The notes beneath the pieces were generated by a model. It did not search any database. It saw nothing but the letters and a program-made list of their open reading frames with translations, and was not told where the DNA came from. Below are positions 13,286-20,667 of a stretch of 29,595 bases of DNA, one piece after another. This DNA comes from a virus. Position 1 is the first letter of the stretch. Every line of letters starts with the position of its first letter. The position numbers and the translations under genes were made by a program. The DNA lies in the IMG/VR virus record IMGVR_UViG_3300047370_000083, positions 1 to 29,595 of that record. One strand, written 5' to 3'.

Positions 13286-16200
13286 ATGACAAGTTATGTT
13301 CCGTTAAAATTAAAAGACAGCGCGAACTTTGAAGAATTCGATACGACAAGTAGTATTGCATCAAATGATGAAAACTATTTGGCATATCAGGTAGGTCTTG
13401 CACTTTCCGAAGCAGATAGTAGTGAACCAGCTTCACTATCTCTCTTAGCTGATTTAAGCACAGATTCCGCATATTTTATTGGTGATTTAATAAACACTGA
13501 ATATGATTCAGCCATTGGAACTGGCGGAAGTGGTTCATTTTTAACTTTTAGTCAAACTGTTCAGTCAGTGTTTCAAAGAGACGGAACAGTATCTTTTACT
13601 GACAGTGACTACCGTATTCCTATCTACACAAAAAATTATTCAGGCGCTGACCAATTGGATGACACAACAGCGAATTTGTCTCAAGTCAATCTCTTGCGAA
13701 ATCGCACAAAATTTGATTATGTTGAAATTGTTTCGGTTAGTAATGGTGATGACTTAACAATAAAAATACCCTCTGAAAGAAATGTAATATTCGATAGGTT
13801 TGTTGGAACTTCAATCAATCAACATGATAGTGATGTAAATGGATATGCAACACATGCTGGCACTGTAGAGTTTGGTAACGCTCTTCATGAACCACCAAAA
13901 ATGACGGTGGAGGCTGCTGTTGGTGTAACAACTGGTAGGTATGAAGATTCTGATAATGCATATGTGATTAACTTTAGAAATGCAACTATTGGTGGAACGG
14001 CATATGCTTCGGCAGAAGCAAAATCAGAATATGAAATTGGCGACAATGGAATATATGTAAATGCTTTAACTCAAAATAATTTTCAAACAATAATCAATGA
14101 GATGGATAGTTCTGCTAGAAGCAGTCTTGTTGATAGATTGAATAGACGTATTTTTACATCTGACTATCCAGGCTCGTATAGACTTAGTTCAGTCTCTCCT
14201 GACAGTGCCGACTGGTCACTTGATTTGTCTAATGTAATGACTGATACGAGAGATAGTGCTGGTAACTATTCCTTACAATATAATATCTATAAAAGAACCT
14301 CAATGGCGGCTCCCAATACGGTTCTCCCATTCGCAATCAAACGGTCTAATGGTGATAGTGGAGACTATCAGGGTCTTCAAAGAATGACACCTAGACAGGT
14401 GAAGTATTCTTTGGGTCAGGAAGCAAAGAAAAGAATCGCGTCTTCTTCTACAAATATTGGTAATTACAGAATCCTGAGTTCTGCGACAGGCACACCATCA
14501 GATATAGGTTTATCAGGAACATGGACGGCAAAGGGAACTGCAACAGATACTCGTCAAGCGGTTGTTGATGCTAACTATACAAGAACTCGTTCAAGTTCAT
14601 TTTCTCGATTAAGAACTTCTACGTTTGCGGGTAACTATACAAGAACTCGTTCAAGTGCATTTTCAGAAGATTATACAACAACTAGAGAATCAACATATAG
14701 TGCAAACTATACCAGAACACGAGCAAGTAATTACTCACTCGGTTTTGTGGGTGACTTTATTGCTAACTATACAACAGAACGTGACCAGAATTTTACAAGG
14801 AATCGAATTGCCCCTGGCGCATTAAGTTATACAAGAACTCGTTCAAGCACCTTTACTGGTAATTTTAGTAGAATACTACAATATACAACAAACTATACTG
14901 GTGATTTTGTAGGCCCAGTGACATCAGGTTTATCAGTTATTGGCACGGCCGACATCCAGATAACCTCACAAGCGTTATTTAATGGCGCTGTTTCAGCTCT
15001 CGTAACTGTTCCGTCTGGAACAAAGTCTGTTATATTGTGTGCTAATGTTAAAACGAATGGTAATAGACGGTCATTGTTTTCCGCTGTTACGTTTGGTGGC
15101 ACCGCAATGAACGAAGCGATATCTCAAAATAACACGCCCGCTGAATATACTTTTGATACAGGAATTTATAATGTAAACTATACTTCTACAGGAGTCAAGA
15201 CTGTTTTTTTCTTCCTGAGTAATAATCCACAAGTCTATGGTATGGGTGCAAGGGTTATTTTTCTCAATAAGGCGTTTAGTAGTTATTCGCCAAGTGATGC
15301 TGATGGCGTCTCCACAACAGGTTCAAGTGGCAGAGGCGATATCACTAACCACAACAAATATGCCAATGGCATAACTGTAGCAAGTGCCACATGTCGAGCG
15401 CCGAATAGTGGTGCTTATGTTGCTCAGGTTGGCGATTTGGCGTATCTATTCTCACCTTATATCGATACTACTGGTTGGAATCAGGGTTTTATTCAACATC
15501 CAAGTGGCAATAACAGTGGGTCTATCACTGGTTATGAATTGCCAACTGGTGTTGGGCCAGCTGGGACAATTTCATTTCGTTATATGCAAAATGATTTTGG
15601 TGAAAGTGCGGCGGTAGCCTCTTGGGCACCATCAAAGTTTGAACAAGATTATGATGTTACTTATACTGGTAACTTTACGAGAGTTGGTCAATATACGTCA
15701 AATTTTTCTAGAAATTTCACAGGTAATTATACTAGAGATGCAGTTTATACTGGTAACTATACGGGAGACTTTTTAGGCGATTTCACAAGAAACCGTCAGG
15801 CCACAAGACCAGACGACTTTACTCGTGACTTTACAGGTGACTATAGTAATGACTATACCAGAACAAGAGTATCAACATATACTCGTAACGCCACTGGTGT
15901 ATTTACGGGTGGATATACTGGTTACTATACTGGTGATTTTACTAGTAATTTCACTAGAATTAGCACAGCAACTACAGGAGCAACTCAACGAGTTCTTATT
16001 GGGCCGGCAAGTAGTAATACCAATTATTGGTGGTCGAGCAGTAACCAAACCAATCGTGTATCTTTTGGAAGTTTTGAATCTTGGTTTGCTGCTACCAATC
16101 TAATTGCTTCCAGTGGTAGTTCTGCCATAAGCGTTGAAAACTACAATACAAATGGGACATACTTACATGGATATTATGGTCATCCAGCGAGCGCGAGCGT

Positions 16201-17035
16201 CTCAAGAACAAATAAATCACCTAGTTATACAGAGACTATCAGGACAGCGACTACCGCACAACTAACTTGGATACGAGGTCATCAGCCGGGTCTTGCGGCC
16301 ACAAACGGACAGGATTGGATTGGCGCATCGTCTGGCATTAGTTATCCTTATTCGAATAGTGATTACATTCAGGCCGGCCCGAATGGAACGCAATGCCCAT
16401 ATGGCGCAACATTCACGAAAAACCTAACTCGTGCTTATGCTCTGAATAACTCATCACAACCAACATTTGCTAATGGAATATACCCTGTAGGTTTTGATGA
16501 TGATTATGGCACGGGTGGAATATTTTGTTTTTATGCGAACAATAATAATGTTTATCTAGTTGGTTCGAATTGGTTAGATTCACAAAGCACAAGTAGTAAT
16601 CGAGGGATTACAGTCTGTGATTTTTCAACGGCGGTTTCTACAAATTATACTGGTAACTATTCAACTGATTTCTTACAGAACTTCACCCGTCTAATTGAAA
16701 CTAATTTTACAGGCGACTTTGCTGGTAACTATTCTAGGAACTTCACGGGGAACTATACTAGGGATTTCACTAGAACACGCACATCAACATACTTGGGTGC
16801 TGAAACATTTAGTCGTGATTTCACAGGTAACTATGAGGGTAACTATACTAGGAACTTTACTCGAACATTTGAAGGTAACTACACAAGAGACTTTACTGGA
16901 AACTACGAAGGTAATTATCAACAAAACTATATTGGTAACTATGTAGGTGAGTTTTTAGGTAACTATGCTGGTGATAGTATTGGTTCAGGGTCTAGTAACA
17001 TTGAGACATATACACTCTATGTAAGAACTGCATAA
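13286..17035 (+). CDS. Large twin fibre with tetrapeptide lattice and two globular islands (1249 aa)
   Basis: Layout by eye: an N-terminal region of about 428 residues containing SNDENYLAYQVGLALSEADS (26-45), IFTSDYPGSYRL (289-300) and GTWTAKGTATDTRQ (411-424); lattice 1 (429-546); island 1 (547-785); lattice 2 (786-893); island 2 (894-1115); lattice 3 (1116-1232); and a C-terminal tag NIETYTLYVRTA. In the lattices every fourth residue is Phe, Tyr or Arg, preceded by Asn/Asp/Ser/Thr and followed by Thr/Ser/small then Gly/Arg, as in GNYTRTRSSAFS. Island 1 resembles a beta-sandwich of the type VTVPSGTKSVILCAN...VTFGGTAMNEA seen in bacterial and phage surface proteins. Island 2 is Trp/Tyr/Asn/Ser-rich and unrecognised. 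The next gene is a paralog lacking both islands. GGAG at 13273-13276 supports the start. It is most likely an adhesin or side fibre; there is no T4 counterpart that I recognise. Confidence 0.85.
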   Translation: MTSYVPLKLKDSANFEEFDTTSSIASNDENYLAYQVGLALSEADSSEPASLSLLADLSTDSAYFIGDLINTEYDSAIGTGGSGSFLTFSQTVQSVFQRDGTVSFTDSDYRIPIYTKNYSGADQLDDTTANLSQVNLLRNRTKFDYVEIVSVSNGDDLTIKIPSERNVIFDRFVGTSINQHDSDVNGYATHAGTVEFGNALHEPPKMTVEAAVGVTTGRYEDSDNAYVINFRNATIGGTAYASAEAKSEYEIGDNGIYVNALTQNNFQTIINEMDSSARSSLVDRLNRRIFTSDYPGSYRLSSVSPDSADWSLDLSNVMTDTRDSAGNYSLQYNIYKRTSMAAPNTVLPFAIKRSNGDSGDYQGLQRMTPRQVKYSLGQEAKKRIASSSTNIGNYRILSSATGTPSDIGLSGTWTAKGTATDTRQAVVDANYTRTRSSSFSRLRTSTFAGNYTRTRSSAFSEDYTTTRESTYSANYTRTRASNYSLGFVGDFIANYTTERDQNFTRNRIAPGALSYTRTRSSTFTGNFSRILQYTTNYTGDFVGPVTSGLSVIGTADIQITSQALFNGAVSALVTVPSGTKSVILCANVKTNGNRRSLFSAVTFGGTAMNEAISQNNTPAEYTFDTGIYNVNYTSTGVKTVFFFLSNNPQVYGMGARVIFLNKAFSSYSPSDADGVSTTGSSGRGDITNHNKYANGITVASATCRAPNSGAYVAQVGDLAYLFSPYIDTTGWNQGFIQHPSGNNSGSITGYELPTGVGPAGTISFRYMQNDFGESAAVASWAPSKFEQDYDVTYTGNFTRVGQYTSNFSRNFTGNYTRDAVYTGNYTGDFLGDFTRNRQATRPDDFTRDFTGDYSNDYTRTRVSTYTRNATGVFTGGYTGYYTGDFTSNFTRISTATTGATQRVLIGPASSNTNYWWSSSNQTNRVSFGSFESWFAATNLIASSGSSAISVENYNTNGTYLHGYYGHPASASVSRTNKSPSYTETIRTATTAQLTWIRGHQPGLAATNGQDWIGASSGISYPYSNSDYIQAGPNGTQCPYGATFTKNLTRAYALNNSSQPTFANGIYPVGFDDDYGTGGIFCFYANNNNVYLVGSNWLDSQSTSSNRGITVCDFSTAVSTNYTGNYSTDFLQNFTRLIETNFTGDFAGNYSRNFTGNYTRDFTRTRTSTYLGAETFSRDFTGNYEGNYTRNFTRTFEGNYTRDFTGNYEGNYQQNYIGNYVGEFLGNYAGDSIGSGSSNIETYTLYVRTA
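14570..14923 (+). repeat. Tetrapeptide lattice 1 of the 1249-aa fibre
   Basis: This stretch encodes residues 429-546. From Tyr431 to Arg507, every fourth position (431, 435, 439 and so on) is Tyr, Phe or Arg without a slip, giving twenty consecutive units. The DNA unit is 12 bases, with synonymous variation between copies. Confidence 0.85.
14924..15640 (+). other. Globular island 1 inside the lattice
   Basis: Residues 547-785 interrupt the period-4 repeat. The section has alternating hydrophobic strands (SALVTVPSGTKSVILCANV, LFSAVTFGGTAMNEA, VKTVFFFLSN, ARVIFLNKAFSSYS) and returns to the lattice at Asp788-Tyr-Asp-Val-Thr-Tyr. The pattern resembles a carbohydrate-binding-like beta-sandwich often fused to phage or bacterial surface repeats. 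The homolog call is by eye. Confidence 0.6.
15641..15964 (+). repeat. Tetrapeptide lattice 2 of the 1249-aa fibre
   Basis: This stretch encodes residues 786-893, including VTYTGNFTRVGQYTSNFSRN and NYTGDFLGDFTRN. The 4-residue period is the same as in lattices 1 and 3. Asn-aromatic-Thr/Ser triplets are frequent. Confidence 0.83.
15965..16630 (+). other. Globular island 2 inside the lattice
   Basis: Residues 894-1115 form a second, unrelated interruption. It is rich in Trp, Tyr, Asn, Ser and Gly (NYWWSSSNQTNRVSFGSFES, QLTWIRGHQPGLAATNGQDW) and contains Cys1037, Cys1081 and Cys1111. I do not recognise a family. It is a candidate receptor-binding head domain because it is unique in the window and displayed between lattice segments. 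Confidence 0.55.
16631..16981 (+). repeat. Tetrapeptide lattice 3 of the 1249-aa fibre
   Basis: This stretch encodes residues 1116-1232. Asn or Asp falls at 1120, 1124, 1128, 1132, 1140, 1144, 1148, 1152, 1156 and 1160. After one phase shift near 1170 it falls at 1178, 1182, 1186, 1190, 1198, 1202, 1206, 1210, 1214, 1218, 1226 and 1230. The aromatic residue follows directly each time. Confidence 0.85.
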
Positions 17036-17038
17036 ATA
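17031..17038 (+). promoter_or_regulatory. Probable late promoter (CATAAATA) before the second twin fibre
   Basis: CATAAATA fits the NATAAATA cyanophage late consensus and overlaps the stop codon of the 1249-residue fibre. With T4 spacing the start would fall near 17044, only 3 bases before the ATG at 17047. An AGGG at 17038-17041 would serve as ribosome binding site only on transcripts that begin further upstream. Confidence 0.5.
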
Positions 17039-17046
17039 GGGTTATC

Positions 17047-18777
17047 ATGGGAACTACACCACTAAAACTTGACGGAACTGACGGCAACCTTAAACAGATG
17101 ACAACATCTGAAGAGAACTATCTCGCATATCAGGCGGGATTGCATCTTGCATCTTTGGATTCTGGTCAAACCTATGTGATAGGTAATGTCTCTCATTCTG
17201 GAACAAATCGTTCAATCGGTTCTATAGTTGATACCAAGTTTGATGACGGAGTTGGAACACATGGATTTGCTAATGGAACTGTTCCTGTTACTCAAACAAG
17301 TTATGCCTTCAATCAACACGCAGATTCGATAACATATTCAGACTCAGCGGATTTCAGAATTCCTACTGAATTTGTTGATAATAGTGGTTCTGCTGAAATT
17401 CATGAACTTACAACAAGTGAACAAAACACACTAGGTGATAGAATAGCATCTGCACTTTTTACCAATGAATATCCTGGCTGTTACAAGTTAGGGTCATCAA
17501 CGCCAGGCAGTGATTGGTCAGTTCACAAATCAGGTATCTTTGAGGATACAATTGAAACTGGTGTATCAGGAACTTCATATAATCTATATGTAAAAGACTC
17601 TATCTCATCTCCACCGTCTGCTGTCCGACCAGTTAGTGTCAAACGTTCAAGTGGTGCAACAGGAACGTTTCAGGGTATTCAGGAGATGTCTGATGCAGAG
17701 GTGAGGTATACTTTTGGTGCTCTTTGTCAAAGTCGGATGGCATCTGCTTCAAGTGCTATTGGTAATTATCTAATCAGGTCATCTGCTCAAGGTGCGCCAT
17801 CAGGTGGAACATGGGTTGCAAAAGGAACTGCAACTGACAGTCGTAGGGATACAACTGATACAGATTATACTAGAACATCTGTAACTGAATTTACAAGAAC
17901 TAGGTCAAGTGCCTTTCAGGGTAATTACTCTAGGGTCTTTTCTGCTGACTATACAAGGAATTCAACTGAAAACTTCACACAAGTTTTTACGGGAAATTTC
18001 GTAGGCGACTTCACTGGTAACTATGCTACAAGTTATACGAGGACTTCTACCCGTGAAACTGATACGGATTTTACCAGAAGTTCTAGTGGTGACTTTATTG
18101 GTAACTATGCTACAGATTTCACAAGAAACTCTACCAGAAATTCAACTAGAGATTCAAATAGAACATCAACTCGAACTAGAGTTCTTACCTATGCCGGCAA
18201 CTTTGCAGGCAACTTTGCTGGTAACTTTGTTGGTAACTTTGTTGGTGACTATACTCGCGGTAGACTCTATTATTCTGACGGAACATTTTATGGCACTGCG
18301 GGTAACTATGTAGGTAACTACGCCAGAACATCAACTCGAACATCAACTCGAACATCAACTCGAACTAGAGTTACTAACTATGTCGGCGACTTTGCAGGCA
18401 ACTTTGCTGGTGATTTTACAGGCGACTTTACAGGCGACTTTGCTGGTAACTATGTTGGTGACTTTACCAGAACTCGGGCGGTTGATTTTACAGGTAACTT
18501 TATTGGCGATTTCACAGGTAACTATGAGGGTAACTATGCTACGGATTTCACAAGAAACTCTACCGCTGACCGAACTGAGGATTTCACTGGAGACTTTGTA
18601 GGTGACTTCACAGGTAACTATGAAGGTAATTACTCTAGGAATTTTTCAGCTGACTATAGTCGAGACTTCATAGGTAACTATGGAGAAAGTTTTTTAGGTA
18701 ACTATGTCGGAACAACAATCGCAGCATCGACTTCTACAATTGAAACATACACCCTATATGTTAAAACCGCATTGTAA
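17047..18777 (+). CDS. Small twin fibre with uninterrupted tetrapeptide lattice (576 aa)
   Basis: This is a paralog of the preceding 1249-residue fibre. Matching landmarks are TSEENYLAYQAGLHLASLDS (20-39), LFTNEYPGCYKLGSSTPGSD (137-156), VKRSSGATGTFQGIQEMSDA (198-217) and GTWVAKGTATDSRR (254-267), plus the C-terminal tag TIETYTLYVKTAL. The head is about 155 residues shorter than that of its twin. Residues 273-555 form one long lattice of about 70 four-residue units, interrupted only by a short GRLYYSDGTFYG segment near 405-416. Units vary by block: TRTS blocks, GNFA/GNFV blocks and GDFT blocks. No globular island is present. Probably a structural fibre or shaft partner of its twin; the shared ends suggest a common docking site and a common tip. 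No database family is recognised. Confidence 0.83.
   Translation: MGTTPLKLDGTDGNLKQMTTSEENYLAYQAGLHLASLDSGQTYVIGNVSHSGTNRSIGSIVDTKFDDGVGTHGFANGTVPVTQTSYAFNQHADSITYSDSADFRIPTEFVDNSGSAEIHELTTSEQNTLGDRIASALFTNEYPGCYKLGSSTPGSDWSVHKSGIFEDTIETGVSGTSYNLYVKDSISSPPSAVRPVSVKRSSGATGTFQGIQEMSDAEVRYTFGALCQSRMASASSAIGNYLIRSSAQGAPSGGTWVAKGTATDSRRDTTDTDYTRTSVTEFTRTRSSAFQGNYSRVFSADYTRNSTENFTQVFTGNFVGDFTGNYATSYTRTSTRETDTDFTRSSSGDFIGNYATDFTRNSTRNSTRDSNRTSTRTRVLTYAGNFAGNFAGNFVGNFVGDYTRGRLYYSDGTFYGTAGNYVGNYARTSTRTSTRTSTRTRVTNYVGDFAGNFAGDFTGDFTGDFAGNYVGDFTRTRAVDFTGNFIGDFTGNYEGNYATDFTRNSTADRTEDFTGDFVGDFTGNYEGNYSRNFSADYSRDFIGNYGESFLGNYVGTTIAASTSTIETYTLYVKTAL
17863..18711 (+). repeat. Long tetrapeptide lattice of the 576-aa fibre
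   Basis: This stretch encodes residues 273-555. The repeat is [NDST]-[FYR]-[TASVE]-[GR], with a DNA unit of 12 bases. Blocks of nearly identical units, such as the GGCAACTTTGCA type near 18196-18250, indicate local expansion. Confidence 0.87.
18328..18363 (+). repeat. Three perfect 12-bp tandem copies (ACATCAACTCGA)
   Basis: ACATCAACTCGA occurs three times head to tail without a mismatch (18328-18339, 18340-18351, 18352-18363), encoding the TRTS block. A related single unit lies near 18163-18174. The length is a multiple of three, so gain or loss of copies keeps the frame. Confidence 0.92.
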
Positions 18778-18813: not shown

Positions 18814-18819
18814 ATGATA

Positions 18820-19272
18820 GTGCAGAGAATATGGTTAAATAATGCATTTTGGGAAACACCCAAAAGACAAATGTTGAATGCAATTAGTGAGGTGACCGAA
18901 GAACCTAATAAGGTGAAACGGGAAGTTCACAAATTAAATAAATATAATGATGACGGAACACCAAACGAACTTTTTAATGAAGCGATTGAATTTTTAGGTG
19001 AAGAGTCTATCAATGCAGCAACTAACAAACGTCTTGAAAAGAAACAAGCAGAAGCTGAAATTGAAAAAGAAAAAAAGTTAGAGCAAGAACGTTCTAAGAA
19101 ACTCGAAAAACTGTTTGAGTATAAACTAGAGACATTTGAGATTGATGAAATAAAGAATTCAAAAAACCGTTTATTAAAATCAAAGTTGAGACGTTCTAAA
19201 TCGATTCCTGAAGTGAACCTGTATGCTATGATGATTGTTAAGGAATCTTTAGAAGATGAACACATCAAGTAA
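18820..19272 (+). CDS. Coiled-coil protein, possible fibre assembly factor (about 150 aa)
   Basis: The start chosen is the GTG at 18820 because GGAGA at 18809-18813 gives a proper 6-base spacing. The in-frame ATG at 18814 abuts that site and would add two residues. The N-terminus is Trp-containing (QRIWLNNAFWETPKRQMLNA). The middle is a long charged helix (about residues 72-125) with KRLEKKQAEAEIEKEKKLEQ and ERSKKLEKLFEYKLE, strongly predicted by eye to be a coiled coil. The end is basic and then helical (SKLRRSKSIPEVNLYAMMIV). I recognise no family. It directly follows the twin fibres and overlaps the glycosyltransferase start by 17 bases, so a chaperone or adaptor role for the fibres or the modifying enzymes is plausible but inferred only from position. 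Confidence 0.8.
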   Translation: MQRIWLNNAFWETPKRQMLNAISEVTEEPNKVKREVHKLNKYNDDGTPNELFNEAIEFLGEESINAATNKRLEKKQAEAEIEKEKKLEQERSKKLEKLFEYKLETFEIDEIKNSKNRLLKSKLRRSKSIPEVNLYAMMIVKESLEDEHIK

Positions 19273-20002
19273 GGGTTTTGTAATTGTCGCGTCAAAGAAT
19301 TCAAACTTCTATATCTATGCGACTAACCTAGCAGAATCAATCAAAGACTTTTATCCTGAATCGCAAATCACTCTGGTAACAGAAGAACGTTTTATTGATG
19401 GACGGGCTGATGTTGCAGATAACATCATATATTGTGACAATCACTATCGTGCCAAACTCTGGGGTATGGCACAAACTCCATATGACATAACAATGTATGT
19501 TGATGCAGATATGGATTGCGAACACGAAGACATCATGACCGTGTGGGATAATCTAAAAGACTATGATATGGTCTTTCACGAGTTGACAAAAGAAAGAGAG
19601 AAATTTTACGCAATACGAGAGTTTTCATATAATGGTAATATGGAGAAATATACCTTATGCGGTGGTGTCTGTTTGTATCGCAGTTCTAATCCTCTGGTTC
19701 GGGAGTTCATGGAAGACTGGTTTGAATTATTTAACAAACAATATAATGGTCTGTGGACTCCTAATGGATTTAATGATGAACAGTGGAGACAAGACCTTGC
19801 TAAATTTGACCAGACAACACTTTGGTGGTTGGTTAACAAGGTAGATAAATATAAGGACTTAAAGATTGGTTTCTTTCATGATGATATTCGATGGAACTAT
19901 TTTACCCAATATGGTTATGAAGGTCTAAAATCCATTGAAGGTAAACCACCAGTTTTACGTCACTACTCTGGTTCTTTGAAAAAGGATACACTCATAGTAT
20001 GA
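19256..20002 (+). CDS. GT8-like glycosyltransferase
   Basis: The 248-residue protein has the outline of a retaining GT-A glycosyltransferase of the GT8 (glycogenin-like) type. A Rossmann-like start is KGFVIVASKNSNFYIYATNL (6-25). The metal and nucleotide-sugar motif is YVDADMD, with the DxD at Asp83-Ala-Asp85. CGGVCLYRSS (135-144) matches the acceptor-side GG motif and FDQTTLWWLV (184-193) the DQ motif. LRHYSGSLKK (235-244) gives His236, Gly239 and Lys242, as in the GT8 HxxGxxK signature. All key residues seem present, so activity is likely. No signal peptide or membrane segment is seen, so it acts in the infected cell's cytoplasm. It overlaps the preceding gene by 17 bases and the next by ATGA. 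Surrounded by fibre genes, it may decorate fibre protein; an unknown glycan substrate or a DNA base are alternatives. Confidence 0.8.
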   Translation: MNTSSKGFVIVASKNSNFYIYATNLAESIKDFYPESQITLVTEERFIDGRADVADNIIYCDNHYRAKLWGMAQTPYDITMYVDADMDCEHEDIMTVWDNLKDYDMVFHELTKEREKFYAIREFSYNGNMEKYTLCGGVCLYRSSNPLVREFMEDWFELFNKQYNGLWTPNGFNDEQWRQDLAKFDQTTLWWLVNKVDKYKDLKIGFFHDDIRWNYFTQYGYEGLKSIEGKPPVLRHYSGSLKKDTLIV

Positions 20003-20667
20003 AAAATGTCCCCATAAAAAATCAAGAGATTCTTGAGGCCTTAAATAACTTTCTATGGTTTTATAATAATCGGGGAATTATTGAAAGAAATTATGTATTA
20101 CATGGAACTGAGAGACAAAGAAAGGAGTATGTGAGTTCTGAGTATCGTGACAAGGTTATCGCAATGAATGAAAACCATGATGGTTTCCCAGAAACAATAC
20201 ACTCTTACGCTCTCAAGGCTGACCGTATCGTTCATGTCAACAATAACAGTGTTGAGGTGGCGGAGGCAATATCAAAATATAGTGATTATAATCAACAACT
20301 AGCACATATGTTATGCACAAAAAATAATGCACTAACTCAAATGTATCCGCCTGGCGGATTTATTGCTTGGCATAATAATGCAAATGCATCTGCATATAAT
20401 ATTATTTTCTCTTGGTCAGAGACGGGAGAAGGATGTTTTAGGTATGTTGATGGTCATACAGGTGACGAAGTTGTCATGCAAGATGTAAAAGGATGGCAGT
20501 GTAAAGCAGGATACTTTGGTGCATATGGTGAACCGTGGTATAATCGTGTATATCATGCAGCGGAAACTGACTGTTGGCGACTAACGGTATCATACATGTT
20601 TGATAGAAGTCAAATGTCTATGGGACTGCAAGACGAAATTGTAGAAGAAATAATGTCTGAAATATAG
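19999..20667 (+). CDS. 2-oxoglutarate/Fe(II) oxygenase-like protein with HxN in place of HxD
   Basis: The 222-residue protein carries the core of a double-stranded beta-helix oxygenase of the prolyl/aspartyl hydroxylase type. YPPGGFIAWHNNANASAYNI (116-135) places His125 and Asn127 where the HxD/E metal motif is expected. VYHAAETDCWRLTVSYMF (184-201) supplies the distal His186 and an Arg194 that would bind 2-oxoglutarate. Many phage relatives have a similar WHxNxN motif, so the Asn may be a family trait; such proteins could bind metal with two His plus water or halide, or be inactive. The start overlaps the glycosyltransferase stop (ATGA), so the two are translated together. A role in hydroxylating or otherwise modifying fibre protein is inferred from neighbours. 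The substrate is not known. Confidence 0.75.
   Translation: MKNVPIKNQEILEALNNFLWFYNNRGIIERNYVLHGTERQRKEYVSSEYRDKVIAMNENHDGFPETIHSYALKADRIVHVNNNSVEVAEAISKYSDYNQQLAHMLCTKNNALTQMYPPGGFIAWHNNANASAYNIIFSWSETGEGCFRYVDGHTGDEVVMQDVKGWQCKAGYFGAYGEPWYNRVYHAAETDCWRLTVSYMFDRSQMSMGLQDEIVEEIMSEI

Follow-up and report, generated by a model that had tools for sequence, protein, structure and literature searches.

The window analysed here is the whole of a 29,595-nt virus record from IMG/VR (IMGVR_UViG_3300047370_000083), which carries T4-like baseplate and tail genes. Two adjacent genes of this uncultured marine phage encode P0001 and P0002, each putatively a phage tail-fibre or whisker subunit, in which long segments follow a four-residue repeat that we call the lattice. 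The two open reading frames (ORFs) and their parts are the following (segments delimited with a hidden Markov model, HMM; AlphaFold confidence given as the predicted local distance difference test, pLDDT):

13286..17035, + strand: P0001, fibre protein 1 (ORF, 1249 aa), with a base domain, three lattice segments, two inserted domains and a C-terminal tail
14573..14923, + strand: P0001 lattice 1 (L1; residues 430-546), from HMM segmentation and lag-4 autocorrelation
14924..15646, + strand: P0001 inserted domain 1 (residues 547-787), hypervariable, a probable receptor-binding domain, common only to close relatives of the window
15647..15964, + strand: P0001 lattice 2 (L2; residues 788-893), with a central, turn-like RPDD at 841
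15965..16636, + strand: P0001 inserted domain 2 (residues 894-1117), hypervariable
16637..16984, + strand: P0001 lattice 3 (L3; residues 1118-1233), with a phase slip of two at 1172
16985..17032, + strand: P0001 C-terminal tail (...IETYTLYVRTA), the putative base strand that returns, kept in homologs
17047..18777, + strand: P0002, fibre protein 2 (ORF, 576 aa), a putative simple hairpin fibre
17047..17841, + strand: P0002 base domain (residues 1-265), three repeated modules (hhalign of module profiles), AlphaFold pLDDT mostly 80-96
17863..18264, + strand: P0002 predicted outgoing arm (residues 273-406), paired with 554-421 in register i+j=827
18265..18300, + strand: P0002 predicted hairpin tip (residues 407-418, including YYSDGTFYG), the sole lattice break, at 0.49 of lattice length
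18301..18696, + strand: P0002 predicted returning arm (residues 419-550), pairing with the outgoing arm in register i+j=827
18697..18774, + strand: P0002 C-terminal tail (residues 551-576, ...TIETYTLYVKTAL), predicted hairpin-closing strand at the base (AlphaFold strand 552-575, pLDDT ~95)

The four-residue periodicity is strict. Autocorrelation of the aromatic positions, which a preliminary description of this DNA had proposed as a check, gives a Phe/Tyr signal of 0.39-0.83 at lag 4 in the lattices of both proteins. The share of successive Phe/Tyr gaps divisible by four is 94% in L1, 80% in L2, 96% in L3, and 90% in the P0002 lattice, a regularity matched by none of 20,000 shuffles. The same description had counted 20 consecutive slip-free units in lattice 1, and residues 431-507 of P0001 indeed have Phe, Tyr, or Arg at 20 out of 20 fourth positions; it had also extended the rule, with few phase shifts, to L2, L3, and the second protein, in agreement with the Phe/Tyr gaps and with a small lattice HMM. 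This HMM finds no slip in P0001 430-508, P0002 273-406, and P0002 418-556, and the slips it places in P0001 (at 530, 800, 819, and 1172) all shift the phase by two. Isolated slips in homologs are also mainly of two residues (138 out of 219 are even, 81 odd). Because slips are mainly even, the two faces of a beta-strand would be preserved across them. Read from the anchor (positions a to d), the consensus is [FY/R]-[T/A/V/S]-[G/R]-[N/D/T]. Identical units share 0.85 and 0.82 of their DNA, compared with 0.834 expected from codon usage; their synonymous codons thus vary as codon usage predicts, which indicates that selection maintains the lattice at the protein level.

Relatives are encoded in 213 candidate stretches of environmental viral contigs, and searching the DNA with a pattern of just the lattice matched at least 119 stretches. 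Almost every lattice-rich ORF falls into a single family, with a conserved base domain of ~265 aa, a lattice, and a C-terminal tail of the TYTLYxR type. We define it here as the C48C1-type fibre family by its three-module base, mirror-symmetric period-4 lattice, and TYTLYxR tail, and assign the window proteins to it. Phage C48C1 (OQ984149, Kyanoviridae) is the only one of 50,697 phage records with the base domain. Its hypothetical protein of 3347 aa is a true homolog: the base domain is 34% identical, a lattice and the tail (ETYTLYVRVA) are present, and the same genes lie downstream. It has a far longer lattice and six inserted domains of 71-246 aa. We gathered 77 non-redundant full-length members and tested the register on 28 of them. 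The loci are mainly from IMG/VR and in part redundant, and the homologs, dereplicated by shared 10-mers, are still related, and the statistics below should therefore not be read as if the samples were independent.

The lattice is mirror-symmetric about its own midpoint, which the preliminary description had missed. In P0002, the small HMM finds it broken once, at 407-417, in the middle. In 25 out of the 30 homologs with a single break, this lies within 0.47-0.53 of the lattice regardless of length, and the arms remain equal over a sevenfold range (619/614, 425/429, 283/287, 131/134, and 83/87 residues). The median distance between break and midpoint in the first 16 single-break proteins is 0.007, a value reached in none of 100,000 random draws of break points. 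Peaks of unit identity at lags of 3 and 6 units had prompted the idea of a one-way solenoid whose turns take 12 residues each. It was rejected: it leaves the mirror symmetry unexplained, and the peaks reflect a local grammar (Gly then Tyr, Arg then Phe).

We computed the mutual information between each residue i and its mirror residue in 28 proteins, over 121 registers anchored at the base. In the antiparallel sense, it peaks at register c=-6 (0.317 versus a median of 0.137, robust z 12); the value at this register in a first, smaller set was 0.379 versus ~0.2. The peaks on either side of it, at c=-4 and -8, correspond to same-face diagonals in a beta-ladder. As a control, parallel alignment of the lattice halves gave no comparable peak (z 2.5). 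At c=-6, position a lies opposite a, c opposite c, and b opposite d, which is what an antiparallel beta-ladder requires. In this reading, the period would be four because one face of the ribbon carries positions a and c and the opposite face b and d, with a:a, c:c, and b:d facing each other across it. This covariation agrees with two proposals of the preliminary description, a beta-type structure and the separation of aromatic/Arg and Gly/Arg residues on one face from Asn/Asp and Thr on the other. A divergent branch with FFGGF tips has a broad peak (c=-13 to -18), which is suggestive only.

The pairs follow a rule (counts are observed/expected, window proteins excluded). At a:a, Tyr:Tyr (451/311), Phe:Arg (268/91), and Phe:Ser (153/76) are enriched, and Phe:Tyr (188/352) and Arg:Tyr (61/161) fall below expectation. 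At c:c, Gly:Arg (543/336), Arg:Ser (158/74), and Gly:Thr (117/55) are in excess, and Gly:Gly (52/208) and Arg:Arg (61/136) are avoided. Accordingly, the c:c side-chain volumes anticorrelate at c=-6 (r=-0.50, n=1353) and are within 0.15 of zero at ten other sampled registers; in P0002 alone, r=-0.72, with neighbouring registers up to -0.46. In leave-one-out tests, c=-6 (or -5/-7) was the top of 121 registers in 22 out of 28 proteins, including P0002. The rule trained without the window places the expected register of P0002 first of 121: scored in this way, i+j=827 reaches 0.473 versus 0.216 ± 0.046 for unit shuffles (0/5000). The complementarity can also be seen by eye: residues 372-404 of P0002 form an STR-rich block and then a FAGN-rich one, and the opposing 455-423 sets FAGN against STR and STR against FAGN.

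The AlphaFold model of P0002 (30 sequences) has a confident base domain, mostly with pLDDT 80-96, a strand just before the lattice (255-275), and a highly confident strand at the extreme C-terminus (552-575). As the strands at both ends of the lattice are ordered, the latter looks like a loop closed at the base. The two strands mirror each other about residue 413.5, which is also the centre of the covariation (275+552=827). The base itself is built from repeated modules: hhalign matches module 1 to module 2 (E 9e-6), module 2 to module 3 (E 4e-6), and module 3 plus the tail to module 1 through the return strand (E 2e-4), all being E-values of single comparisons of shallow alignments. The C-terminal tail (TYTLYVK) is similar to SYNLYVK, the return strand of module 2. 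Taken together, the alignment and the strand predictions suggest that the lattice occupies the place of the short hairpin turn of modules 1 and 2.

These results lead us to interpret the lattice, with a probability of roughly 85%, as a giant out-and-back antiparallel beta-hairpin that extends the third base module. The conserved three-module base domain would presumably anchor the protein to the baseplate. Two strands would be joined by a short beta-hairpin in modules 1 and 2 and by the lattice in module 3: there, the chain would run outward for ~60 to more than 600 residues, turn mid-way, and return, the C-terminal strand closing the ladder at the base. The register would be held by the pairing rule (Tyr:Tyr, Phe:Arg or Ser, Gly:Arg/Ala/Thr, Arg:Ser, avoiding Gly:Gly and Arg:Arg). 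P0002 would be the simple case, with ~130 pairs and a short tip; at ~0.33 nm per residue it could reach up to ~44 nm. Periodicity, mirror symmetry, register, pairing rule, module repeat, and the variability of the inserted domains are computed findings; the location in a fibre, receptor binding, pairing within a chain instead of between chains, oligomeric state, and length are inferred.

P0001 carries two inserted domains on its lattice. Base domains are alike in 2917 out of 2926 pairs of proteins, and inserted domains in 27 out of 861. Such hypervariable domains on conserved bases suggest that these proteins are probably receptor-binding fibres, the inserted domains being the parts that probably bind the receptors. 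Keeping the pair scores unchanged, we searched for stems in proteins outside the training set. Stem scores were above those of shuffles in 44 out of 49 of these proteins, and crossing stems were rare (7/67 versus 55/177). Where a protein has two inserts, the best-scoring arrangement is often a base stem with two arms, one insert per arm. The branched model clearly outscores the unbranched one in proteins L171 (65.8 versus 48.9), L180 (57.2 versus 46.6), and L175 (54.6 versus 41.7), where shuffled sequences score 25-31 and the break points lie near the equal-arm solution. The lattice of C48C1 resolves into a mostly nested tree of stems. For P0001, branched and unbranched scores are 38.1 and 36.4, or 33.7 and 37.2 with a different trimming. 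Its branched optimum has breaks at 487, 842, and 1173, the last two beside RPDD (841) and the 1172 slip, but it exceeds shuffles by only z 2.5 and is no clear improvement on mirrored inserts; a simple L1:L3 hairpin is weak (z 1.0 ungapped, z 3.1 gapped). The topology of P0001 is therefore ambiguous: the two variable domains may sit on separate branches or mirror each other along a single hairpin. More generally, we lean slightly towards the view that these fibres are built like RNA secondary structure. They would consist of long antiparallel beta-ladders, nested in one another and interrupted by bulges, looped-out domains, and three-way junctions, and cross-strand complementarity would encode the register in the sequence. 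The sequence alone would then tell the architecture of a fibre and the sites at which it displays its adhesin domains.

Several observations weigh against the hairpin. AlphaFold leaves residues 277-550 of P0002 unfolded, and a single-sequence prediction of 353-474 gives long strands (365-390 and 419-444) that are compatible with a hairpin but have a register sum lower by 18, with a centre at ~404.5 rather than 413.5, and low confidence; it backs at most a hairpin-like topology. The register was not recovered in 6 out of 28 proteins, and some Arg-poor lattices fail to recover it with the pair score used. P0001 fits no single topology well. Foldseek returned no significant match for the whole P0002 model in PDB and BFVD, and the base domain thus gives no functional hint. 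Finally, the same antiparallel pairing could occur between chains, either in a trimer where arm 1 of each subunit pairs with the neighbouring subunit's arm 2, or in a six-stranded needle of three packed hairpins like that of T4 gp37, and would yield the same covariation as pairing within a chain. Phage fibres are usually trimers. The tip of T4 gp37 is a six-stranded antiparallel needle (PMC9659904). Still, pairing within a chain is favoured by the hairpin homology of module 3 and by the AlphaFold model, in which a single chain has strands 255-275 and 552-575 ordered; a branched trimer is also harder to envisage. We thus regard pairing between chains as rather unlikely, if the most serious of the alternatives.

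Other explanations fare worse. The preliminary description had favoured a beta-type or spiral trimeric shaft, which would be a one-way beta-spiral or beta-helix of period-4 repeats, and the strict lag-4 periodicity, the alternation of two faces, and the short repeats of known trimeric shafts are all in line with it. However, the turn in the middle of the lattice, the equal arms, and the mirrored covariation are not, and the C-terminus is not at the far end: the tail strand is ordered with the base domain, and the only peak is antiparallel, with no parallel signal. We consider such a shaft improbable. The low pLDDT (~30) at P0002 277-550 could also point to a low-complexity disordered linker, with repeats produced by slippage, given the tandem tracts of 12, 24, and 36 bases in the DNA. 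Yet identical units show no excess of DNA identity, which rejects recent tandem duplication, and a disordered linker does not account for strict phase, even slips, a cross-strand pairing rule, and equal arms, which makes this reading very improbable. The preliminary description had taken a confident prediction of disorder as telling against a periodic fold; this is half of what AlphaFold returned, with low pLDDT and no structure at 277-550, but the covariation points to ordered pairing hidden from it by the alignment used. (A MAFFT alignment of tip-centred segments lost the register and was excluded from folding.) A palindrome in the DNA, or one half copied from the other, could correlate mirrored codons. 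This has a negligible probability and is refuted for P0002 by a DNA test: the complementarity of the arms at the register is 0.236, below the mean of 0.262 over offsets. Furthermore, Tyr:Tyr and Phe:Arg are not reverse-complement codon pairs, and the parallel scan has no peak.

Neither P0001 nor P0002 belongs to a Pfam or PHROGs family, and their NCBIfam and PDB matches are insignificant; no Pfam, NCBIfam, or PHROGs profile of a catalogued repeat family (pentapeptide, hexapeptide, or other) matches them. The Pfam search proposed in the preliminary description thus found no family, and its suggestion of an undescribed fibre fold agrees with the lack of matches in Pfam, PHROGs, and PDB. None of 30 homologs has a Pfam match, and some have weak PHROGs matches, two of these to a tail fiber family. 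The lattice repeat strings had no match in the literature searched, which covered few of the subscription journals. In the T4 gp37 tip, every chain runs out and comes back. The likeness is that of a distal fibre of antiparallel strands, the out-and-back chain being read here from covariation and symmetry rather than from a solved structure. PDB searches revealed no sequence relation of P0001 or P0002 to gp37 or another solved fibre. The window proteins differ from gp37 by their long, variable arms, their inserted domains, and a pairing rule of period 4; a gp37-type trimer is a possibility here. The P0002 lattice has no His, and hence by sequence no gp37-type iron-binding HxH motif.

A virion/structural protein of S-RIM2 cyanophage (L007:7339-13077) resembles the lattice by its four-residue [N/D]-x-T-G repeat (NVTGNLTG, a tblastn match), but its anchor is aliphatic instead of aromatic and its N- and C-termini are unlike. 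It was rejected as a homolog, as the match is confined to the NVTG repeat. The C-terminal beta-prism of T4 gp5, which is one-way, trimeric, and of period 8, also has short Gly-containing beta repeats in a phage spike; it weakly matches only the S-RIM2 repeat, and the window lattice has no match to gp5. The chlamydial Pmp repeats GGA(I,L,V)/FxxN are tetrapeptide motifs of an adhesin (PMC11166332), which lie there in the coils of a beta-helix, whereas the pairing in the window proteins would be that of an antiparallel hairpin.

Of 162 loci with the base domain, 81 have two genes that encode it, some loci being cut by contig ends. A conserved set follows the fibre genes:

18814..20667, + strand: three conserved downstream genes (152 aa, 248 aa, and 222 aa), found downstream of the fibre gene in 100, 96, and 90 loci, respectively

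Their order is the same in C48C1. The charged 152-aa protein right behind P0002 (18814-19272) is a possible fibre chaperone. The 248-aa product (19256-20002) is glycosyltransferase-like by eye (YVDADMD), and the 222-aa product (19999-20667) is 2OG-Fe oxygenase-like by eye. Neither enzyme-like gene has a Pfam or PHROGs assignment, and C48C1 was the sole phage record matched by tblastn. Their products may modify the fibre. The N-[FY]-[TS] units of the lattice (14573-16984 and 17863-18696) double as N-X-S/T motifs, and with a glycosyltransferase-like gene nearby, glycosylation of the lattice is a possibility.

Some relatives depart from the common type. A divergent branch (L042, L099, L111, L112, and L125) has a Gly-rich lattice and a tail ending in ...LW[VI][KR]T on the same overall plan; several members carry a mid-lattice FFGGF element at 0.42-0.49. 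One of its loci, L042, also has a lattice-like ORF of 1104 aa (+ strand, offset 524) with YTGFYTGPSTPGTP repeats, a Pro-rich variant of the family. The only match in bacterial genomes (L227, JAAXIF010000028.1) lies on a contig binned as Sphingobacteriales and is probably a mis-binned phage.

In summary, if our interpretation is correct, these genes would encode a fibre architecture for which we found no described relative, in which beta-ribbons of tens, perhaps hundreds, of nanometres have their register set by simple, sequence-readable pairing of residues. Proteins of this type, which combine a constant base with hypervariable domains on display, would then be likely to mediate host recognition in many uncultured marine phages. 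Covariation within a single repetitive protein would also have revealed structure where AlphaFold sees disorder.

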